Shown here: positions 36,652 through 60,669 of the stretch, piece by piece
Position numbering within the stretch: position 1 is the stretch's first letter
Layout of the letters: each line of letters starts with the position of its first letter
Source: a virus
Reading direction: 5' to 3' (one strand)
IMG/VR virus record: IMGVR_UViG_3300032236_000718
Location: 1-64,000 of that record
DNA: 64,000 nucleotides
The notes under the pieces: model-generated
The model's input: the letters and a program-made list of their open reading frames with translations, nothing else
Told to the model about the DNA's origin: nothing
Database searches by the model: none
Program-made: the position numbers and the translations under genes

Positions 36652-37614
36652 ATGACAAATAAAATATGGGGTCAATCTTTTGGCTATCACTATACAGTAG
36701 AGGGATCTAACTGTGATGTAGATAGTCTTAAATCATTTGACAAAGCACAACAGTTTTTAACAGAACTGTTGTTAGTTTATTCTGCTTATCCGATCATGGC
36801 ATCAGGTTATCCAAATGTTTTTAAGTATGCTCCGGACTCTGATGCATTAGCTATACACCAAGCTTTAGTCACTGGCATGATTAGTATCTACACTAATCCA
36901 AGTGATGCTACAATCTATTTTGACATGATGGTTAATAGGTCATTTAATCCAGAACCTGTAATAGAGATGCTGGCCAAGTATTTTGGTATGAAAGTCTATA
37001 AGACTAATCATATGCGTCGTCAAGCAGATCTTAAACATATATTCACTGGTAAAAATGAAGATGATATCATAAATCATATCATCACTGGACCTAATGTGAC
37101 GTTTAATGATATATTTGCGAGAGCATTACCAGATGGTCTCGTACTTGAGTTTGGTGTTGCGGAGGGTAAGTCTATTAGAGAGATGGCTGCAGCGGCACCA
37201 GATAGAAAGATCTGGGGATTTGACTCATTCCAAGGATTGCCAGAAGACTGGAAAGAAGATGTTGGCAAGGGTGCTTTTGCTTGTGATCCACCAACAGACT
37301 TAGCTGACAATGTCGAGTTAGTCGTCGGTTGGTTTAATGAGACACTAGAGCAATGGGCTGCAAATAATCCAGGCCATTTGTCTGTCATTCATCTTGATGC
37401 AGACCTATACTCATCGACAGACTATGTGATGCGTACACTCGAGGACAGGTTCGTCGATGGTACAATCATCGTATTTGACGAGATACACGGGCATCCTGAC
37501 CATAAAGACCACGAGTATAAGAACTTCCTAGAGTTCCTAGATCGCACTGGCTTTAAGTGGGAATGCTTAGGGCAACGCACGGGCGAAGCAGCCGCCTTTA
37601 GGATCTATAAATAA
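36652..37614 (+). CDS. Inactive SpeD-like domain fused to TylF-type methyltransferase
   Basis: 320 residues in two domains. Residues about 8-125 align end to end with the SpeD-like protein encoded next (G-Y-H-Y-T-V-E and the later strands). At the three catalytic positions it has Gly75 for the pyruvoyl-forming Ser, Tyr80 for His and Asn95 for Cys, so it cannot self-cleave. Residues about 145-320 are a TylF/MycF-type AdoMet methyltransferase: E-F-G-V-A-E-G-K-S (166-174), W-G-F-D-S-F-Q-G-L-P, H-L-D-A-D-L-Y and F-D-E-I-H-G. The dead domain may bind AdoMet or activate SpeD. The acceptor of the methyl group is unknown; sugars are typical. Confidence 0.85.
   Translation: MTNKIWGQSFGYHYTVEGSNCDVDSLKSFDKAQQFLTELLLVYSAYPIMASGYPNVFKYAPDSDALAIHQALVTGMISIYTNPSDATIYFDMMVNRSFNPEPVIEMLAKYFGMKVYKTNHMRRQADLKHIFTGKNEDDIINHIITGPNVTFNDIFARALPDGLVLEFGVAEGKSIREMAAAAPDRKIWGFDSFQGLPEDWKEDVGKGAFACDPPTDLADNVELVVGWFNETLEQWAANNPGHLSVIHLDADLYSSTDYVMRTLEDRFVDGTIIVFDEIHGHPDHKDHEYKNFLEFLDRTGFKWECLGQRTGEAAAFRIYK
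37606..37613 (+). promoter_or_regulatory. T4-type late promoter box TATAAATA
   Basis: A perfect octamer overlapping the last Tyr, Lys and stop codons of the methyltransferase; 38 bases before the SpeD start. Confidence 0.5.
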
Positions 37615-37650
37615 AATCACCTTAAACAATGTACATAGGAGTACTGATAA

Positions 37651-38031
37651 ATGAGTGACTACTGGGGATATCACCTCGTTCTTGACGCATCAGGTTGTGA
37701 TGCAGCATCTATCGCATCTGCTGAGAATATCACAGCCTTTGCAAAGCAATTAGTTGTAGACATCGACATGGTTCCATATGGTGAGCCACAGGTTGTTAAC
37801 TTTGGTAGTGGTAACAAGCAAGGTTATACTCTCGTTCAACTCATTGAGACGTCAAATATCTGCGCACACTTTGTAGAAGAGAATAATACATTCTATCTCG
37901 ACGTGTTCTCGTGTAAGCCATACGATCCTGTAATCGTTATTGAGTTGACAAAGCAATACTTCAAGCACACTAACTATCGCACTGCGTTCCTTGAACGACA
38001 GGCACCACCTTCGGTAGAACCTACCAACTGA
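37651..38031 (+). CDS. speD: AdoMet decarboxylase-family proenzyme (SpeD-like)
   Basis: 126 residues. W-G-Y-H-L-V-L-D-A-S-G-C-D and E-T-S-N-I-C-A-H-F...L-D-V-F-S-C match SpeD. Ser68 (pyruvoyl precursor), His73 and Cys88 keep the spacing of the bacterial catalytic triad. SpeD makes decarboxylated AdoMet for spermidine; some phage relatives are reported to decarboxylate ornithine or arginine instead, so the substrate is open. The His after the cleavage Ser is Asn here. Confidence 0.88.
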   Translation: MSDYWGYHLVLDASGCDAASIASAENITAFAKQLVVDIDMVPYGEPQVVNFGSGNKQGYTLVQLIETSNICAHFVEENNTFYLDVFSCKPYDPVIVIELTKQYFKHTNYRTAFLERQAPPSVEPTN

Positions 38032-38051
38032 TAAACACTTTTGAGGATGAT

Positions 38052-39059
38052 ATGACTGAACAATATAATGCTTTTGAAGAGAATGAAATTTCAAAGAACT
38101 CACAAGGCGGCACAGAGATCACTAAGCGATCAATTGCTGCCTTGGTTGATCCAGAGTTAGCCAGTAACTTCCAGGTTATTCCTGCACGAGTTCGTGAGCT
38201 ACAAGACGATAAGATCCGTGTATACTGGCTGCATGACTTGGCTGAAGATCCTGAGGCTAATCACTTACAGAATGCCAATAGCCGTGATCGCTTCCATAAG
38301 TTTGTGTTCTCGAGCAACTGGCAATACCAACAGTATGTCGATAAGCTTGGCTTTCCACAAACAGTAGATGCTATCGTACTTGAGACACCTATCGAACCAT
38401 TCGAGCGTGTAGAGAAGAGCAAGGATGAAGTGCGTCTTATCTATTTCTCAACACCACACCGTGGATTAGAGTTGTTAGTTCCTGTGTTTGAGGAACTCGC
38501 AAAGCATCACGATAACATTCATCTCGATGTTTTCTCTAGCTATAAGATCTATGGTTGGGAAGATGCAGATGAGAAGTACGAGGCACTATTCGATCGTATC
38601 CGCAATCATCCAAAGATGACTTATCATGGATTCCAGCCTAATGACGTATTGCGTGATGCTGTCAGCAAGGCACACGTCTTAGCATATCCATCTATTTGGG
38701 CTGAGACGAGCTGCCGCGTATTGATGGAGTCGATGAGTGCCGGTCTGTTGTGTGTGCATCCTAACTTCGGTGCATTGGCTGACACGTCTGGTGGACTGAC
38801 ATCAATGTATCCATATGACACTAATCCAAATACTCACGCCAATATCTTCTACGCACATCTCAATGAGGCAGTCAACATTGTCAACACTGAGAATGCGCAG
38901 AACTATCTTGGCTTTGTTAAGTCATACGCTGATGCACGATTCAATATTCAAAAGGTATCTAGCCAATGGAATGCAATGATGCAGGGTCTATTGAAGCAAT
39001 ACCCAGACGCAGAGTCTAGAGCATTGAAGAAGAAAGAGATGTTTAGGTATAAAGTCTAA
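38052..39059 (+). CDS. Glycosyltransferase, GT-B fold (GT4-like)
   Basis: 335 residues. The nucleotide-sugar-binding C-terminal motif Y-P-S-I-W-A-E-T-S-C-R-V-L-M-E-S-M-S-A-G (Glu-x7-Glu type) is typical of GT4 enzymes. The N-terminal domain contains V-Y-W-L-H-D. GAGGAT precedes the ATG. Its stop overlaps the heptose kinase start, and with the two following genes it forms a sugar module. The acceptor is unknown. Confidence 0.88.
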   Translation: MTEQYNAFEENEISKNSQGGTEITKRSIAALVDPELASNFQVIPARVRELQDDKIRVYWLHDLAEDPEANHLQNANSRDRFHKFVFSSNWQYQQYVDKLGFPQTVDAIVLETPIEPFERVEKSKDEVRLIYFSTPHRGLELLVPVFEELAKHHDNIHLDVFSSYKIYGWEDADEKYEALFDRIRNHPKMTYHGFQPNDVLRDAVSKAHVLAYPSIWAETSCRVLMESMSAGLLCVHPNFGALADTSGGLTSMYPYDTNPNTHANIFYAHLNEAVNIVNTENAQNYLGFVKSYADARFNIQKVSSQWNAMMQGLLKQYPDAESRALKKKEMFRYKV

Positions 39060-40051
39060 TGATTGTTACAAAGACTCCGTTAAGGATATCTTTCTTTGGA
39101 GGTGGAAGTGACATACCGCAGTACTACAACAAGTATCCGGGTATGGTCATCTCCACCTCTATTGATAAGAACATATACATCGCAGCCAATAAATGTCAGG
39201 CTAATCACTTCAAGATCATCTACTCACAGCTCGAGCTGACTAATCATAGGGTAGATATCAAGCATGATCGCATCAAGGCAATCATGGAATACTTTAATGT
39301 GTATGGCAATGTAGAGCTATGCAGCTTCTCTGATATTGACACAAGAGGTAGCGGACTCGGATCATCATCTACGTTTACTGTTGGTAGCCTACATGCTATG
39401 TTCGAGATGCTTGGCAAGAAGACTAATCGTCTTGAGTTAGCTGAGCTCGCGTCACATATCGAGATTAATATGTGCGGTGAGCCGATTGGTAAGCAGGACC
39501 AATATGCTGCAGCGTTTGGTGGTTTTAATGTGATTAGGTTCAACTCATCAGGAGTTGAGGTGAGACCTGTCTTTATTAAGCCATCTGTTGTTGAGGAGCT
39601 AAACGATAACTTATTGTGCTTCAACACTGGTGTCACAAGAGCAGCGTCTTCTGTGCTGAAAGAGCAGGTCAAGGGACTAGAGGGTGGCATTACGCAGAAC
39701 ACAACAATCAATCAGACATCCAGTCTTGTAGATATAGCTGAGGTAGCACTCAAGTATATAGAGAATGGACACTTAGATGACTTTGGTGCACTACTCGATA
39801 CATCATGGCGCATCAAGAAGAAGTTGGCTAAAAGCATATCAAATCCTATCATAGATATAATGTATGAGCAGGGAATGAGCTGCGGTGCACTAGGTGGCAA
39901 GCTGCTCGGTGCAGGAGGCGGTGGCTACATGCTGTTCTATATACCGAAGAGTAAACAGGCACAACTCAGAGAGACTATGGCTGAAGAGGGATATAAACAG
40001 ATGGACTTTAAGTTTACAGACAAGGGATCGACAGTGGAGCTATCAATATGA
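39059..40051 (+). CDS. hddA: GHMP kinase, heptose-7-phosphate kinase-like (HddA)
   Basis: 330 residues. P-L-R-I-S-F-F-G-G-G-S-D (N-terminal), G-S-G-L-G-S-S-S-T (ATP-binding GLGSSS), G-K-Q-D-Q-Y and G-G-K-L-L-G-A-G-G-G-G-Y are the GHMP motifs in the D-glycero-D-manno-heptose-7-phosphate kinase pattern. It phosphorylates the product of the isomerase encoded by the overlapping next gene. Confidence 0.9.
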   Translation: MIVTKTPLRISFFGGGSDIPQYYNKYPGMVISTSIDKNIYIAANKCQANHFKIIYSQLELTNHRVDIKHDRIKAIMEYFNVYGNVELCSFSDIDTRGSGLGSSSTFTVGSLHAMFEMLGKKTNRLELAELASHIEINMCGEPIGKQDQYAAAFGGFNVIRFNSSGVEVRPVFIKPSVVEELNDNLLCFNTGVTRAASSVLKEQVKGLEGGITQNTTINQTSSLVDIAEVALKYIENGHLDDFGALLDTSWRIKKKLAKSISNPIIDIMYEQGMSCGALGGKLLGAGGGGYMLFYIPKSKQAQLRETMAEEGYKQMDFKFTDKGSTVELSI

Positions 40052-40638
40052 TTTTAAGCAAATACATTCACTATCTTAATCAAGCATTAGACACTATCGA
40101 CCAAGGCGATCATGCCGGTATGGTCTTTCATCTAACACACGCTGCTCGCACAAATAAGCCAGTCTATGTGTTTGGTAACGGAGGATCAGCTTCGACAGCA
40201 GACCACTTCGCGTGTGACCACTCAAAGGGTGTTTTAACAGACACAGACTTTATTCCTAATGTTATCAGCTTGAGCTCGAACATGGCATTGTTCTCCGCTC
40301 TAGCTAATGATATCGGTTATGACAGTGTGTTTAGTCACCAGCTCAGACACTTTCCTCGTGATAATGGAATAGCCATCGGTATATCAGCCAGCGGCAACTC
40401 ACAGAACGTACTTAATGGATTAAATCAGGCAAGAGAGATGGGATTCACAACCATTGGTTTGGTTGGATTTGATGGCGGTAAGATGAAGAGCGATAAAATA
40501 TGTGATATGCTAATCCATGTTAAGTCGACAAACTATGGGATTGTTGAGGACTGCCACTCGATCATCATGCATACCACATCTCAGGAGATACGTACAAGCA
40601 ATCTTAAGGGTGACCCTGACCATATCCCCAAACTATAA
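40048..40638 (+). CDS. gmhA: Sedoheptulose-7-phosphate isomerase (GmhA-like)
   Basis: 196 residues, SIS domain: F-G-N-G-G-S-A-S-T-A-D-H-F-A-C-D and G-I-S-A-S-G-N-S-Q-N-V fit GmhA. It converts sedoheptulose-7-P to heptose-7-P, the first step to activated heptose. ATGA overlap with HddA. Stop codon coincides with a TATAAATA box. Confidence 0.92.
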   Translation: MILSKYIHYLNQALDTIDQGDHAGMVFHLTHAARTNKPVYVFGNGGSASTADHFACDHSKGVLTDTDFIPNVISLSSNMALFSALANDIGYDSVFSHQLRHFPRDNGIAIGISASGNSQNVLNGLNQAREMGFTTIGLVGFDGGKMKSDKICDMLIHVKSTNYGIVEDCHSIIMHTTSQEIRTSNLKGDPDHIPKL

Positions 40639-55473: not shown

Positions 55474-56643
55474 ATGGCGCTATACATAGACCCAGATAGG
55501 GTAAGAGAGATCTCCAAGAAACTAAAGACCGGTAAAGTGTACTCTATACAGTCGACCGATGTTGTAGAACACGCCTCCGCATATGCTGCATATAGGGAAG
55601 TCGGAGGACGCGTAATGGTATTGCCTCCACATCTTACGAACGAGTACAAACAATTTGTTCAGGAATATGTCGATGACGAGTCGCAGTACGGGACTAGTGG
55701 TGTTATCGTCATGACTTCCGGTACGACTGGAAACCCCAAGATAGTAATACACAACCTAGATTCTTTTCAAAGTTGTGATATCATGATCTCGGAGTGGGGA
55801 ATAGATGAGCACACTAATGTAATAGCTACTCCTCCACCATTCACCTCTTTTTTCTGGGCCTTAATGCATGCATCATACAACTTAAACGGTTGCTCTAGAG
55901 CTATTCACGCTACTAGAGATACATTAGTAGACATTGTTGAGGAGTCTAGAGGTAGTAAATTCATCATGTTAGCCTCTCCAGGATTATTAGACTTACTAGA
56001 GGCGTCTTCTACTCACATTGACTTCTCTGGTATGGAGAGGATGATGATGGGTGGAAGTAAGATGCTAGATAGACATGTAGACATTGCTTTTAGCAGAGGT
56101 GTCAACAAGATCGTATATCAATATGCTAGCACAGAGATTATTGGTGGCCTGTACAGCTATATCCATAAAGATACTCCCAGAGAGCACTATGAGACTCTGA
56201 GTGAATCCTCAATGGGTAAGACAATACGTATAGTAGATGGTCTTCTCATGGTAAAGGGTATTGGACTAGCCAAAAATCTTCATCTTGACGATCAGGGATA
56301 CTATAACACTGGAGATATGTTTAATGTCGAGAGTGATGGTCGATATAGGTTCTTGGGCCGTGTCGACGACATGATAAAGCTAAATGGACTAAAGTGCTTC
56401 CTTACTAAGATTGAGGAGGAGTGTGAGAGGATTGGTCTTATAAACACTCTCGCAGTACCGAGACAGAGGATGGGCGTAGAATATATAGAATTACAATATA
56501 CAGACTCTACTAGGACTATCGATATCCTCTCTCTAAAGAGGGAGTTAAAGGACCTGTTATTAGACCAAGAGATACCTCGAGCCTACACTAAGGTCGACAG
56601 CATTAAAAAGACTCCTCTCGGTAAGAAGATTAGGAGACTTTAA
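55474..56643 (+). CDS. Adenylate-forming (ANL superfamily) enzyme
   Basis: 389 residues. Core motifs in order: A3 M-T-S-G-T-T-G-N-P-K (80-89), A5 Y-A-S-T-E, A7 Y-N-T-G-D, A8 F-L-G-R-V-D-D-M-I-K-L-N-G and A10 K-T-P-L-G-K-K (catalytic Lys about 384). All catalytic residues for acyl-AMP formation are present. The N-terminal part before A3 is about 100 residues shorter than in acyl-CoA ligases, so substrate binding must differ. No carrier protein or CoA gene is adjacent. A rare activity for a phage; the substrate is unknown. Confidence 0.88.
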   Translation: MALYIDPDRVREISKKLKTGKVYSIQSTDVVEHASAYAAYREVGGRVMVLPPHLTNEYKQFVQEYVDDESQYGTSGVIVMTSGTTGNPKIVIHNLDSFQSCDIMISEWGIDEHTNVIATPPPFTSFFWALMHASYNLNGCSRAIHATRDTLVDIVEESRGSKFIMLASPGLLDLLEASSTHIDFSGMERMMMGGSKMLDRHVDIAFSRGVNKIVYQYASTEIIGGLYSYIHKDTPREHYETLSESSMGKTIRIVDGLLMVKGIGLAKNLHLDDQGYYNTGDMFNVESDGRYRFLGRVDDMIKLNGLKCFLTKIEEECERIGLINTLAVPRQRMGVEYIELQYTDSTRTIDILSLKRELKDLLLDQEIPRAYTKVDSIKKTPLGKKIRRL

Positions 56644-58247: not shown

Positions 58248-58276
58248 TGTACAAAATATCACACTGTGTGTTATAA
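58248..58276 (+). promoter_or_regulatory. Sigma70-like promoter TGTACA-N17-TTATAA before tmRNA
   Basis: Canonical -35; the -10 (TTATAA or TATAAA) overlaps a late TATAAATA box at 58272. Confidence 0.6.
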
Positions 58277-58279
58277 ATA
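58272..58279 (+). promoter_or_regulatory. T4-type late promoter box TATAAATA before tmRNA
   Basis: A perfect octamer; predicted transcription start near 58285 coincides with the expected 5' end of the acceptor RNA. Confidence 0.55.
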
Positions 58280-58284
58280 ATATA

Positions 58285-58600
58285 TGCTGTTGTTGATGAC
58301 GAAAGCAGAATAGACATACTGGACGCGGGGGCGGTACCCGCCCGGTCCACCATGGATACACAAACACCCTGCGAGATTGTTGCTTTAGGGTAGGGTGACA
58401 AGAAATAGAACAGCAACTAATACTTGTTTTATTTGTGTATCTTTGATGGGCCGGAAATTAGGATCGACAGGTGTGTTAAAAGCGGACCGAGACAGAAGCA
58501 TAAATAAGTTATCTGCAAACGATAATTCACCTATTGAAATGCGCCTAGCGGCATAATTTCTTGGGTTGGCAACTTACCTCGAAACAGAAAAGTTGCACTT
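58285..58600 (+). ncRNA. ssrA: tmRNA, circularly permuted two-piece
   Basis: The acceptor RNA (to 58352) ends in acceptor strand CCGGTCC, A73 and CCA. The coding RNA starts at 58448 with GGGCCGG, which pairs with it and includes G3-U70, the Ala identity pair. AGGATCGACAGG follows as in alphaproteobacterial tmRNA; GTGTGTT pairs with GACATAC (helix P2). The resume codon is GCA at 58515 and the tag reads A-N-D-N-S-P-I-E-M-R-L-A-A-stop (to 58556). A GCAACTT/AAGTTGC stem closes the 3' end (58569-58596). The T-loop is aberrant (GGCGGTA). tmRNA rescues stalled ribosomes with SmpB, presumably from the host. Confidence 0.93.
58355..58441 (+). other. Intervening segment of the permuted tmRNA
   Basis: The segment between the two tmRNA halves is closed by a perfect 10-bp helix, GATACACAAA (58355-58364) with TTTGTGTATC (58432-58441). 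It would hold the precursor together for processing; the middle should be removed. Confidence 0.75.
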
Positions 58601-58629
58601 CACACAAACAACAAACACAGGAGACTACA

Positions 58630-58845
58630 ATGACAAAAACACCTTTTGAGATTCGTTTTGATCTTCTCAACTATGCGATGAGCCAGCTAACTGGCGAGTA
58701 TTATGCAGCCTTGGAGCGCATACGAGAGTCAACACAAGAAAATTCACCAGCTCGAAACGATGCGGTAAATCAATTAAAATATCCTACTAAGAGTGACATC
58801 ATCCTTTTAGCAGAGGATTTAAAAGCCTTCATTGACAAAAAGTAA
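58630..58845 (+). CDS. Hypothetical protein, 71 aa
   Basis: Helical small protein (I-R-F-D-L-L-N-Y-A-M). GGAGACTACA lies before the ATG, as in the array genes. Adjacent to the tmRNA and one base before tRNA-Arg. Function unknown. Confidence 0.6.
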   Translation: MTKTPFEIRFDLLNYAMSQLTGEYYAALERIRESTQENSPARNDAVNQLKYPTKSDIILLAEDLKAFIDKK

Positions 58846-58939: not shown

Positions 58940-59110
58940 ATGAATGACTTGAGTAACTACTCCGTCGATGTCTTAAAGAAGACATGCTTTCAAGATGAGT
59001 TGTCAAGCTTAAGAGTTAAGTACCCAGAACCCGATAATTTAACACGCATCATTATGGATTACCTTGATCAGCGCATCAAGGAGATCGACAAAAAATATAA
59101 GATAAAGTGA
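58940..59110 (+). CDS. Hypothetical protein, 56 aa
   Basis: A small, charged helical frame starting 16 bases after tRNA-Arg, with GGAG at 58928. Its stop lies just before the carbamoyltransferase ribosome site. No recognised motif. Confidence 0.55.
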   Translation: MNDLSNYSVDVLKKTCFQDELSSLRVKYPEPDNLTRIIMDYLDQRIKEIDKKYKIK

Positions 59111-59121
59111 AAGGATACCTT

Positions 59122-60669
59122 ATGAAGTTCTTGAGCATTCGCGATGGACATGACTGCAATATCTCCTACTCTGATGGCAAGACCGTAAGGTACATCAAGT
59201 TCGAGCGCAACTATCAGAAGAAGCACTACAACTGGGGCCACGAGGAAGGCGACCAGATGGAGTTCTTACTTAAAGAAGCTCAGCGTATCTGGGGTATCGA
59301 CTTCCGCGATCTCAACGGCATCGCTCTAGTAAACGACAACGCTCATCATAAGCTCGATCGCGACATCGCTCTCAATGAGATGTATTACGTTATCGACAAA
59401 GAGAAGAACCCATTCTGGGCACAGTTCAACTGTCAAGTCTTTAAGATCGATCACCACTACGCACACATGATGAGTTGCTGGCCACTTGTAAATGTACAAG
59501 ACGTGCGCACTCACTTTGTCGTCGACGGTCTAGGTGACCATGCTCGTAACACCGCAGTGTTCCAAGATAACGATCTTGTCGACTTCATCGATCGCTCTCA
59601 GAACCTTGGCATCTCTGTCATTCTCGAGCACATCGGTCAAAACTATGGCATGAAGGGAATGGTTCTCGACATCTCTGGTAAGGTTATGGCTCTCAAGTCG
59701 TATCATCAGGTTCCGGACCAATTAGCATTCGACGCTATGAACCTTGCTAAGTATCTTGGCCTTCGTAACCTCAACCACTTCATTGAGATCTCTAAGCAGC
59801 TTCAAGGATATATTGATCCACTACCGAGCGAGCAACAGCAGCTAGTCAACCTAGCTTATCTCTTGCACGTGTTTGGTGAGGAGAAGATGCCACAGTACTT
59901 CCGTCAGTTCGCTAAGCGCGATGAGGTCATTACGTATTCTGGTGGCACTGCACAGAACACTGTCATCAACACAAAGATCAAGGAAGCTTTCCCTAACTCT
60001 CATATTCCTCCTCACTGCTACGATGGTGGTCTGTCGCTTGGCGGTGTTGAGTTCCTTCGCCAACTATTTCAACAGGATCTATTTGATAACTCTAACTTCC
60101 CTTACTGGCAGTCAGATGAGGCTCCTGCCTCTACTCCATCTGCTGCTACTATCGATAAAACTGCTGAGCTTCTAGCTCAGGGTAAGATCGTTGGTTGGTA
60201 TCAGGGCAATGGTGAGATTGGCCCTCGCGCACTCGGTAATCGCTCGATCTTGATGGATCCATCTATTAAGGATGGTAAAGACATCATCAATACAAAAGTA
60301 AAGAAGCGTGAACCATATCGACCTTTCGGAGCATCTGTTCTCGCGAAATATGCTGGACAACACTTCGATGTCGACTATGAGTCTCCCTACATGCTCCACG
60401 TAGTCAATTGCCTCACCGATGACTTCCCTTCAATTCAACATGTTGACAAGACCTGCCGTATCCAGACAGTCAATGAGGATTCACAGTACTCTGTCTATCA
60501 TTCCATCATCGATAAGTTCCGCGAGAAGACTGGCATTCCTATGCTACTCAATACGAGCTTGAACGTTGATGGTAAGCCTATTGCTGGCTACATGGAAGAT
60601 GCTAAGACCTTGTTTAATGACTCTGACCTAGATGCAGTAGTCATTGGTGACGATATTATGGTTAAATAA
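59122..60669 (+). CDS. Carbamoyltransferase (NodU/CmcH/TobZ family)
   Basis: 515 residues. The N-terminal Kae1-like domain has D-H-H-Y-A-H-M-M (metal His) and V-D-G-L-G-D-H. The C-terminal domain has G-E-I-G-P-R-A-L-G-N-R-S-I-L-M-D-P and P-Y-R-P-F-G. The family carbamoylates sugars or antibiotics from carbamoyl phosphate via carbamoyl-AMP. AAAGGA seven bases upstream supports 59122. In rhizobia NodU modifies Nod factors; here a phage, virion or LPS sugar is the likelier target. Confidence 0.92.
   Translation: MKFLSIRDGHDCNISYSDGKTVRYIKFERNYQKKHYNWGHEEGDQMEFLLKEAQRIWGIDFRDLNGIALVNDNAHHKLDRDIALNEMYYVIDKEKNPFWAQFNCQVFKIDHHYAHMMSCWPLVNVQDVRTHFVVDGLGDHARNTAVFQDNDLVDFIDRSQNLGISVILEHIGQNYGMKGMVLDISGKVMALKSYHQVPDQLAFDAMNLAKYLGLRNLNHFIEISKQLQGYIDPLPSEQQQLVNLAYLLHVFGEEKMPQYFRQFAKRDEVITYSGGTAQNTVINTKIKEAFPNSHIPPHCYDGGLSLGGVEFLRQLFQQDLFDNSNFPYWQSDEAPASTPSAATIDKTAELLAQGKIVGWYQGNGEIGPRALGNRSILMDPSIKDGKDIINTKVKKREPYRPFGASVLAKYAGQHFDVDYESPYMLHVVNCLTDDFPSIQHVDKTCRIQTVNEDSQYSVYHSIIDKFREKTGIPMLLNTSLNVDGKPIAGYMEDAKTLFNDSDLDAVVIGDDIMVK

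Follow-up and report, generated by a model that had tools for sequence, protein, structure and literature searches.

A catalytically dead decarboxylase-fold domain fused to a TylF-type methyltransferase in a phage: a candidate dimerising scaffold beside a probable ornithine decarboxylase

Gene organisation of the locus

The DNA analysed here, called the window below, is a stretch of 64,000 nucleotides from IMG/VR virus record IMGVR_UViG_3300032236_000718 and forms part of a virus record of 164,428 bases. Phage replication and nucleotide genes surround a gene that encodes a two-domain fusion protein (Table 1). The fusion gene begins one base beyond the preceding gene's stop, with an AGGA just upstream, and 36 bases separate its end from the start of the next gene, an intact gene with an AGGAG of its own that encodes a SpeD homologue. 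The glycosyltransferase gene found near the intact gene is retained in many relatives, and the slot between these two genes is variable, being occupied in relatives (loci L014-L045) by different unidentified genes between conserved flanks.

Table 1. Features of the fusion locus, in window coordinates.
Feature	Position	Strand	Basis
Fusion ORF, 320 aa, ATG start	36652..37614	+	ORF as given in the earlier note
Dead AdoMetDC-fold domain, fusion residues 1-131 (predicted)	36652..37044	+	Pfam AdoMet_dc, profile against shuffles, signature counts, AF2
Linker and methyltransferase N-terminal lead, residues 132-160	37045..37131	+	Gap between the Pfam matches
TylF/MycF/NovP-type class I O-methyltransferase domain	37132..37611	+	Pfam TylF and Methyltransf_24, PDB sequence matches, Foldseek, motifs
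TATAAATA, at the fusion gene end, 45 bases 5' of the intact gene	37606..37613	+	Motif counts
Intact SpeD homologue, 126 aa, predicted pyruvoyl-dependent L-ornithine decarboxylase	37651..38031	+	Alignments, counts, tree, published signature
Glycosyltransferase, group 1 family, same gene block	38052..39059	+	Pfam
GHMP kinase, best match D-glycero-D-manno-heptose 7-phosphate kinase HddA, under curated cut-off	39059..40051	+	
SIS-domain protein, best match sedoheptulose 7-phosphate isomerase GmhA, under curated cut-off	40048..40638	+	

The motif TATAAATA occurs 11 times in the window against 3.42 expected, a count reached by none of 100 shuffles. It lies at most 100 bases 5' of the intact gene in 5/5 fusion sequences, compared with 1/34 of the others. 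It resembles the core of T4-type late promoters, and the copy in which the fusion gene ends could provide a separate late transcript for the intact gene.

The N-terminal domain is a pseudo-decarboxylase

The homology of the N-terminal domain to SpeD, proposed in an earlier note made from the DNA sequence, is confirmed by profile searches. Pfam AdoMet_dc (PF02675, cut-off 25 bits) matches fusion residues 13-123 with an E-value of 3e-8, scoring 34.4 bits on the whole protein and 37.3 bits on residues 1-133. A profile of 69 intact relatives only gives 40.3-50.2 bits for the five distinct dead domains, whereas 5000 shuffled versions of the window's dead domain score 13.2 bits at most.

In an alignment of 80 rows (five dead, 69 intact, and six canonical AdoMetDC-type), Gly75, Tyr80, and Asn95 of the window occupy the columns that otherwise hold the pyruvoyl Ser, the His, and the Cys, so that the replacements read by the earlier note are correctly placed. 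Gly75 and Tyr80 are common to all five dead rows, while position 95 is Asn in two and Asp in three; the intact rows display Ser, His, and Cys in 69/69 cases. The three residues of active decarboxylases (positions 63, 68, and 83 in T. maritima) are absent from the fusion N-domain in 5/5 distinct sequences, which supports its assignment as a true pseudo-decarboxylase domain with three catalytic residues lost.

The AF2 model of residues 1-135 has a pLDDT of 89.9, its alignment including 75 decarboxylase-homologue rows that steer the fold. Its top PDB matches are the T. maritima AdoMetDC entries 1vr7, 1tlu, and 1tmi (Z 15.2-15.6 over 115-116 residues), with 1vr7 reaching Z 15.6 over 116 residues and a Foldseek E-value of 1.6e-6; A. 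aeolicus 2iii follows at Z 14.7. Next come human AdoMetDC and human spermine synthase (3c6k, Z 10.1 over 106 residues, Foldseek rank 11), and matches at Z 8.0 or below, such as Mediator and ribosomal S6, were taken as reflecting a common arrangement. A full-length AF2 model built from five close rows only has a mean pLDDT of 55.9 and no AdoMetDC fold in its N-domain. As modelled with the deeper alignment, the first ~125 residues are predicted to adopt the class 1b AdoMetDC fold, in keeping with the earlier note. The spermine synthase match, weaker than the AdoMetDC matches, shows in this model a shared fold, and hence a precedent rather than a kinship of the whole proteins.

The intact neighbour resembles ornithine decarboxylases

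The protein encoded at 37651 had been regarded as a live SpeD. It is catalytically intact, with Ser68, His73, and Cys88 and a Pfam AdoMet_dc score of 75.8 bits, but the label SpeD probably does not fit it. Li et al. 2023 (PMC10407285) describe Gln, Thr, Phe, and Tyr residues as diagnostic of SpeDC, the pyruvoyl L-ornithine decarboxylase. All four are present at Gln63, Thr67, Phe74, and Tyr82 of the 37651 protein, the columns being matched from the wording of that paper. Across the aligned intact set, Gln is found in 69/69, Thr in 69/69, Phe in 68/69, and Tyr in 69/69, and the canonical rows have none of them (6/6). With 38.5 bits, the 37651 protein also stays below the cut-off of 75.65 of the NCBIfam adenosylmethionine decarboxylase family TIGR03330, and the tree groups it with bacterial SpeDC, the canonical rows lying across a 99/98 branch. 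It is thus best described as a SpeD homologue with an ornithine-decarboxylase signature.

Five phage homologues, some of freshwater origin, have been reported to possess ornithine decarboxylase activity, the one exception in their clade being a true AdoMetDC from a Sinorhizobium phage (PMC9992855). At the position of the SpeDC Thr, the phiN3 protein carries Asp, and the 37651 protein therefore follows the rule rather than the exception. Most probably it is a separate pyruvoyl-dependent ornithine decarboxylase that supplies putrescine, and no AdoMet decarboxylase. If so, phage genes annotated "SpeD" next to such fusions are likely to encode ornithine decarboxylases. Spermidine synthase (PF01564, Spermine_synth) has no match in the virus's own 164,428-base record, which is possibly incomplete. 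Elsewhere, Microcystis phage MaAM05 (L156, 1486-4264) is annotated with a cluster consisting of speE, speB, and two speH, a near-complete polyamine pathway.

Descent and retained residues of the dead domain

The dead domain bears the marks of both branches of the family. Three of the SpeDC signature residues (Gln70, Thr74, and Tyr89) are kept in 5/5 dead domains and are absent from 6/6 canonical rows, while the Phe is replaced by Thr81 in 5/5. Thr81 and Pro83 are AdoMetDC-like positions, this Pro being conserved in true AdoMetDCs, and the Glu that follows it in the canonical HTWPE motif is Ser or Ala in the dead domains. In a mixture-model tree of 55 rows, the dead domains are nested among the phage SpeDCs (clade support 97/96), their branch measuring 3.2 changes per column; an LG+G4 tree places them at the base of SpeDC plus the phiN3 group. 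Grouping them with canonical AdoMetDCs is not rejected by the AU test (p 0.151). Descent from SpeDC is favoured, mainly by the residues.

A recent duplication of the window's own intact gene was also considered and is not the favoured origin: the mixture-model tree sets the dead domains beside the intact gene of another locus (L030), although holding them with the intact genes of the window and L010 is not rejected either (p 0.239).

These data bear on a proposal of the earlier note, that the domain is an AdoMet-sensing module; by binding AdoMet it would meter the supply of cofactor to the methyltransferase. The AdoMetDC-like Thr81 and Pro83 and the AU test that leaves the canonical grouping standing would suit such a sensor. 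They are set against three SpeDC-like residues in every dead domain, a best tree that nests these domains in SpeDC, and the loss of the HTWPE Glu, and the sensor now appears highly improbable. With four SpeDC diagnostics in the neighbour and three in the dead domain, AdoMet would no longer tie the dead domain to the methyltransferase; judging from these residues, it is probably the ligand of neither the dead domain nor the neighbour.

If not AdoMet, the old active site might hold ornithine, putrescine, or a related amine whose binding gates the methyltransferase. Such a ligand switch would account for Gln70, Thr74, and Tyr89 staying unchanged in all five sequences while the catalytic residues are gone. 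However, the signature Phe is lost in every one, and of the 26 columns with at least 90% conservation among intact SpeDCs, 17 have changed in one or more of the five dead domains, so that we hold this switch to be quite improbable.

The methyltransferase domain

The intact AdoMet methyltransferase noted behind the dead domain is borne out by profiles and motifs. It scores 52.4 bits with Pfam TylF (cut-off 23) and 43.4 bits with Methyltransf_24, and its motifs (EFGVAEG at residue 166, HLDADLY at 247, and VFDEIHG at 274) are conserved in 5/5 distinct sequences. Invariant in the same five are Asp249, Asp251, Asp276, and Glu277, which may correspond to the metal-binding acidic residues of TylF-type methyltransferases. 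Spermine_synth is not among the Pfam matches of this domain up to an E-value of 1. By sequence, the PDB matches are the sugar O-methyltransferases CalS11, NovP, MycF, and SpnH; by Foldseek, the C-terminal part of the full-length model, of modest confidence, matches CalS11 and MycF at the top of the list, and NovP and SpnH as well.

These PDB relatives, together with the neighbouring glycosyltransferase and the HddA-like and GmhA-like proteins (the latter two under curated cut-offs), suggest a sugar substrate, which probably belongs to a glycan that the phage encodes or modifies. Putrescine was also considered as the methyl acceptor, but was dropped because the structurally solved TylF relatives act as O-methyltransferases on sugars.

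Distribution, exchange, and selection

Besides the window's own virus, 52 viral loci were found with the intact gene. The fusion lies directly 5' of it at seven of them; homologues of the window's upstream genes (35945 or 36282) adjoin the intact gene without the fusion at 30, and the surroundings differ at the remaining 15. The intact enzyme therefore does not need the fusion. The two-domain order, which the earlier note had proposed to seek in other phages, is thus found in seven viral loci, and together with the window these hold five distinct fusion sequences, all with an open frame. Whether the query was the whole fusion or its dead domain, IMG/VR profile scans returned the same seven contigs, which a methyltransferase-only scan also found; these scans rely on short peptide patterns and so reach close relatives only.

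By tblastn at 80% coverage, the fusion was found in 0/116 matching phage records and 0/35 plasmid records, and among the best 80 of 531 confirmed bacterial SpeDC loci no methyltransferase match lies on a SpeD-like frame. No published description of a SpeD- or SpeDC-methyltransferase fusion came up in the searches made of the open-access literature. Mycobacteriophage matches over residues 63-308 were rejected as fusions, since they correspond to a standalone O-methyltransferase with small ORFs upstream. At one fusion-free viral locus (L025), a separate methyltransferase of 46% identity is encoded downstream.

The fusion gene also moves on its own. In L011, the upstream stretch is window-like and the fusion gene resembles that of L010 (90-97% across the comparison windows), while the DNA over 37631-38618, intact gene included, is 100% identical to L005. 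From this mosaic it follows that the fusion gene was exchanged apart from the intact gene. Being shuffled among phages with different intact alleles, the fusion offers a natural test of an interaction between the two proteins.

The long branch and the three lost catalytic residues might be expected of a decaying gene-fusion remnant devoid of its own function. The coding sequence argues otherwise. In 9/10 pairs the dead domain has a dN/dS of 0.075-0.163 (about 0.1), the tenth pair being saturated. The frame is open in 5/5, and over 131 residues the dead domains are still 70-90% identical to that of the window, although 32-78% of silent sites differ between pairs. The intact gene has a dN/dS of 0.047-0.108 in 9/10 pairs, with the tenth identical. 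The fusion gene is under purifying selection, and decay is a most unlikely explanation.

A dimerising scaffold as the preferred reading

We propose that the non-catalytic, SpeDC-derived domain dimerises a sugar O-methyltransferase, a reading whose chances we judge to be evenly balanced. The product of the fusion gene would be a two-domain O-methyltransferase whose TylF-type C-domain acts on a glycan sugar. Its N-domain would have arisen as a copy of a small pyruvoyl decarboxylase, most likely of the SpeDC branch. From the known roles of the lost residues in homologues, where Ser, His, and Cys are needed for making the cofactor and for the reaction, it should be unable to decarboxylate. It would be kept for its shape, pairing sheet to sheet with a second copy and thereby holding the methyltransferase as a dimer.

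The proposal builds on precedent. The N-domain of human spermine synthase takes no catalytic part and provides the greater share of the dimer interface; when it is deleted, both the dimer and the activity are lost (PMC4730321). This N-domain has been described as a fusion of a bacterial AdoMetDC that lost its AdoMetDC function and was retained for dimer formation (PMC12803844). Furthermore, bacterial AdoMetDCs dimerise via their sheet faces (PMC5201418). A self-contained enzyme also fits a fusion gene that is its own recombination unit, absent from the 30 loci with the same upstream genes. Several observations count against the proposal, among them the weaker spermine synthase match and the poor full-length model described above. 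A pure scaffold has no need of the three out of four ornithine decarboxylase signature residues that are kept, and leaves unexplained why the intact paralogue is always directly downstream (7/7). Moreover, phage relatives of the methyltransferase do without the N-domain, being standalone or fused to a glycosyltransferase.

The constant adjacency is better accommodated if the dead domain forms a regulatory pair with the 37651 enzyme, whereby ornithine decarboxylation would be coupled to the methylation of glycans. The two share a fold and probably an ancestor, and they are direct neighbours in the window and in 7/7 viral fusion loci. Dead SpeDC halves also adjoin live SpeD halves in bacterial fusions, as in V. 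vadensis (PMC10407285), and SpeDC/SpeD pairs are common: among the best 80 of the 531 confirmed SpeDC loci of bacteria, 27 have a canonical SpeD nearby, an arrangement described by Li et al. (PMC10407285), and so do 4/52 viral loci. In these four (L049, L050, L052, and L054), a canonical SpeD with the ESHxSIHTWPE motif lies directly 5' of the SpeDC-type gene, and some phages thus seem to encode both decarboxylases.

Pairing with the 37651 enzyme is nevertheless unlikely in our view. The intact gene occurs without the fusion at the 30 loci with the same upstream genes, and the two genes recombine apart, an L005-identical intact gene accompanying an L010-like fusion in L011. The expected geometry is also unfavourable. 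Human AdoMetDC C-half residues 173-287 overlie model residues 10-123, an offset of ~163 taken from the range ends only, and His243 of the human enzyme then falls near Tyr80 of the dead domain. In a face-to-face dimer of one live and one dead subunit, and provided that the bacterial dimer has the corresponding architecture, the live site would probably receive Tyr80 in place of the His needed for processing. Since the catalytic His probably comes from the partner subunit, a dead partner is likelier to block, as an antizyme would, than to activate in the manner of a prozyme. The corresponding version, in which a pseudo-ornithine-decarboxylase with its methyltransferase attached forms mixed dimers with the phage's pyruvoyl ornithine decarboxylase and acts as an antizyme-like joint switch unrelated to the prozyme, we rate as rather unlikely. 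If true, polyamine synthesis and glycan methylation would be switched together by the enzyme's own fold.

The earlier note had proposed activation of SpeD in the manner of the trypanosome prozyme as one of its two readings. It is abandoned here as the leading explanation, on distribution and on mechanism: the neighbour is probably of SpeDC type, the 30 loci lack the fusion, Tyr80 would probably stand for the His, and the prozyme mechanism needs a domain that bacterial enzymes lack (PMC5201418). The dead domain is unusual, but a new regulatory principle is probably not at work.

If the preferred reading of a dimerising scaffold is right, the fusion would add a second example, now in a phage, of a transferase preceded by a dead AdoMetDC-fold domain that serves as a structural module. 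It would suggest that this fold is readily recycled as a dimeriser, here apparently from the ornithine decarboxylase branch.

Relation to known systems

Human and animal spermine synthases come close to the fusion in that a dead class 1b AdoMetDC-fold N-domain precedes a transferase domain (fold match Z 10.1). Their C-domain, however, is an aminopropyltransferase (Spermine_synth) and not a TylF O-methyltransferase, and the fusion differs further by the SpeDC-like character of its dead domain and by the intact paralogue that adjoins it. SpeDC-type domains that have lost active-site residues within a larger protein are common to the fusion and to the proteins described in PMC10407285; in the latter, the partner in the same chain is an active AdoMetDC, in contrast to the methyltransferase found here.

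The phage pyruvoyl ornithine decarboxylases LBP and UCP01-UCP04, several from freshwater (PMC9992855), are phage SpeD homologues like the 37651 protein, a likeness drawn from the published SpeDC signature. The available part of PMC9992855 makes no mention of a dead paralogue or a methyltransferase fusion for them. The trypanosome AdoMetDC prozyme, like the fusion N-domain, is a dead paralogue of an AdoMetDC-family enzyme. It is, however, a full-length class 2 protein that acts through its N-terminal helix and a dimer region arranged edge to edge, both missing from bacterial-type halves (PMC5201418), whereas the fusion N-domain has ~131 residues, the size of a single class 1b half, and lacks that full-length form. 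Finally, the methyltransferase family is common to the fusion, to mycobacteriophage glycosyltransferase-methyltransferase proteins (phrog_8858), and to standalone phage methyltransferases (phrog_6608). The N-terminal partner is annotated as a glycosyltransferase in the first of these phrogs and does not exist in the second; in the fusion it is the dead decarboxylase domain.

Other features of the window

Further downstream, the window (58249-58647, + strand) harbors a tmRNA that is permuted according to ARAGORN and matches both the permuted and the alphaproteobacterial tmRNA families of Rfam; its type hints at an alphaproteobacterial host. On either side, an AMP-binding ligase-like protein of 389 aa (55474-56643, + strand) and a NodU-like carbamoyltransferase (59107-60669, + strand) are encoded, each under its curated cut-off. 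Both are odd cargo for a phage and are perhaps involved in the same glycan or small-molecule modification.
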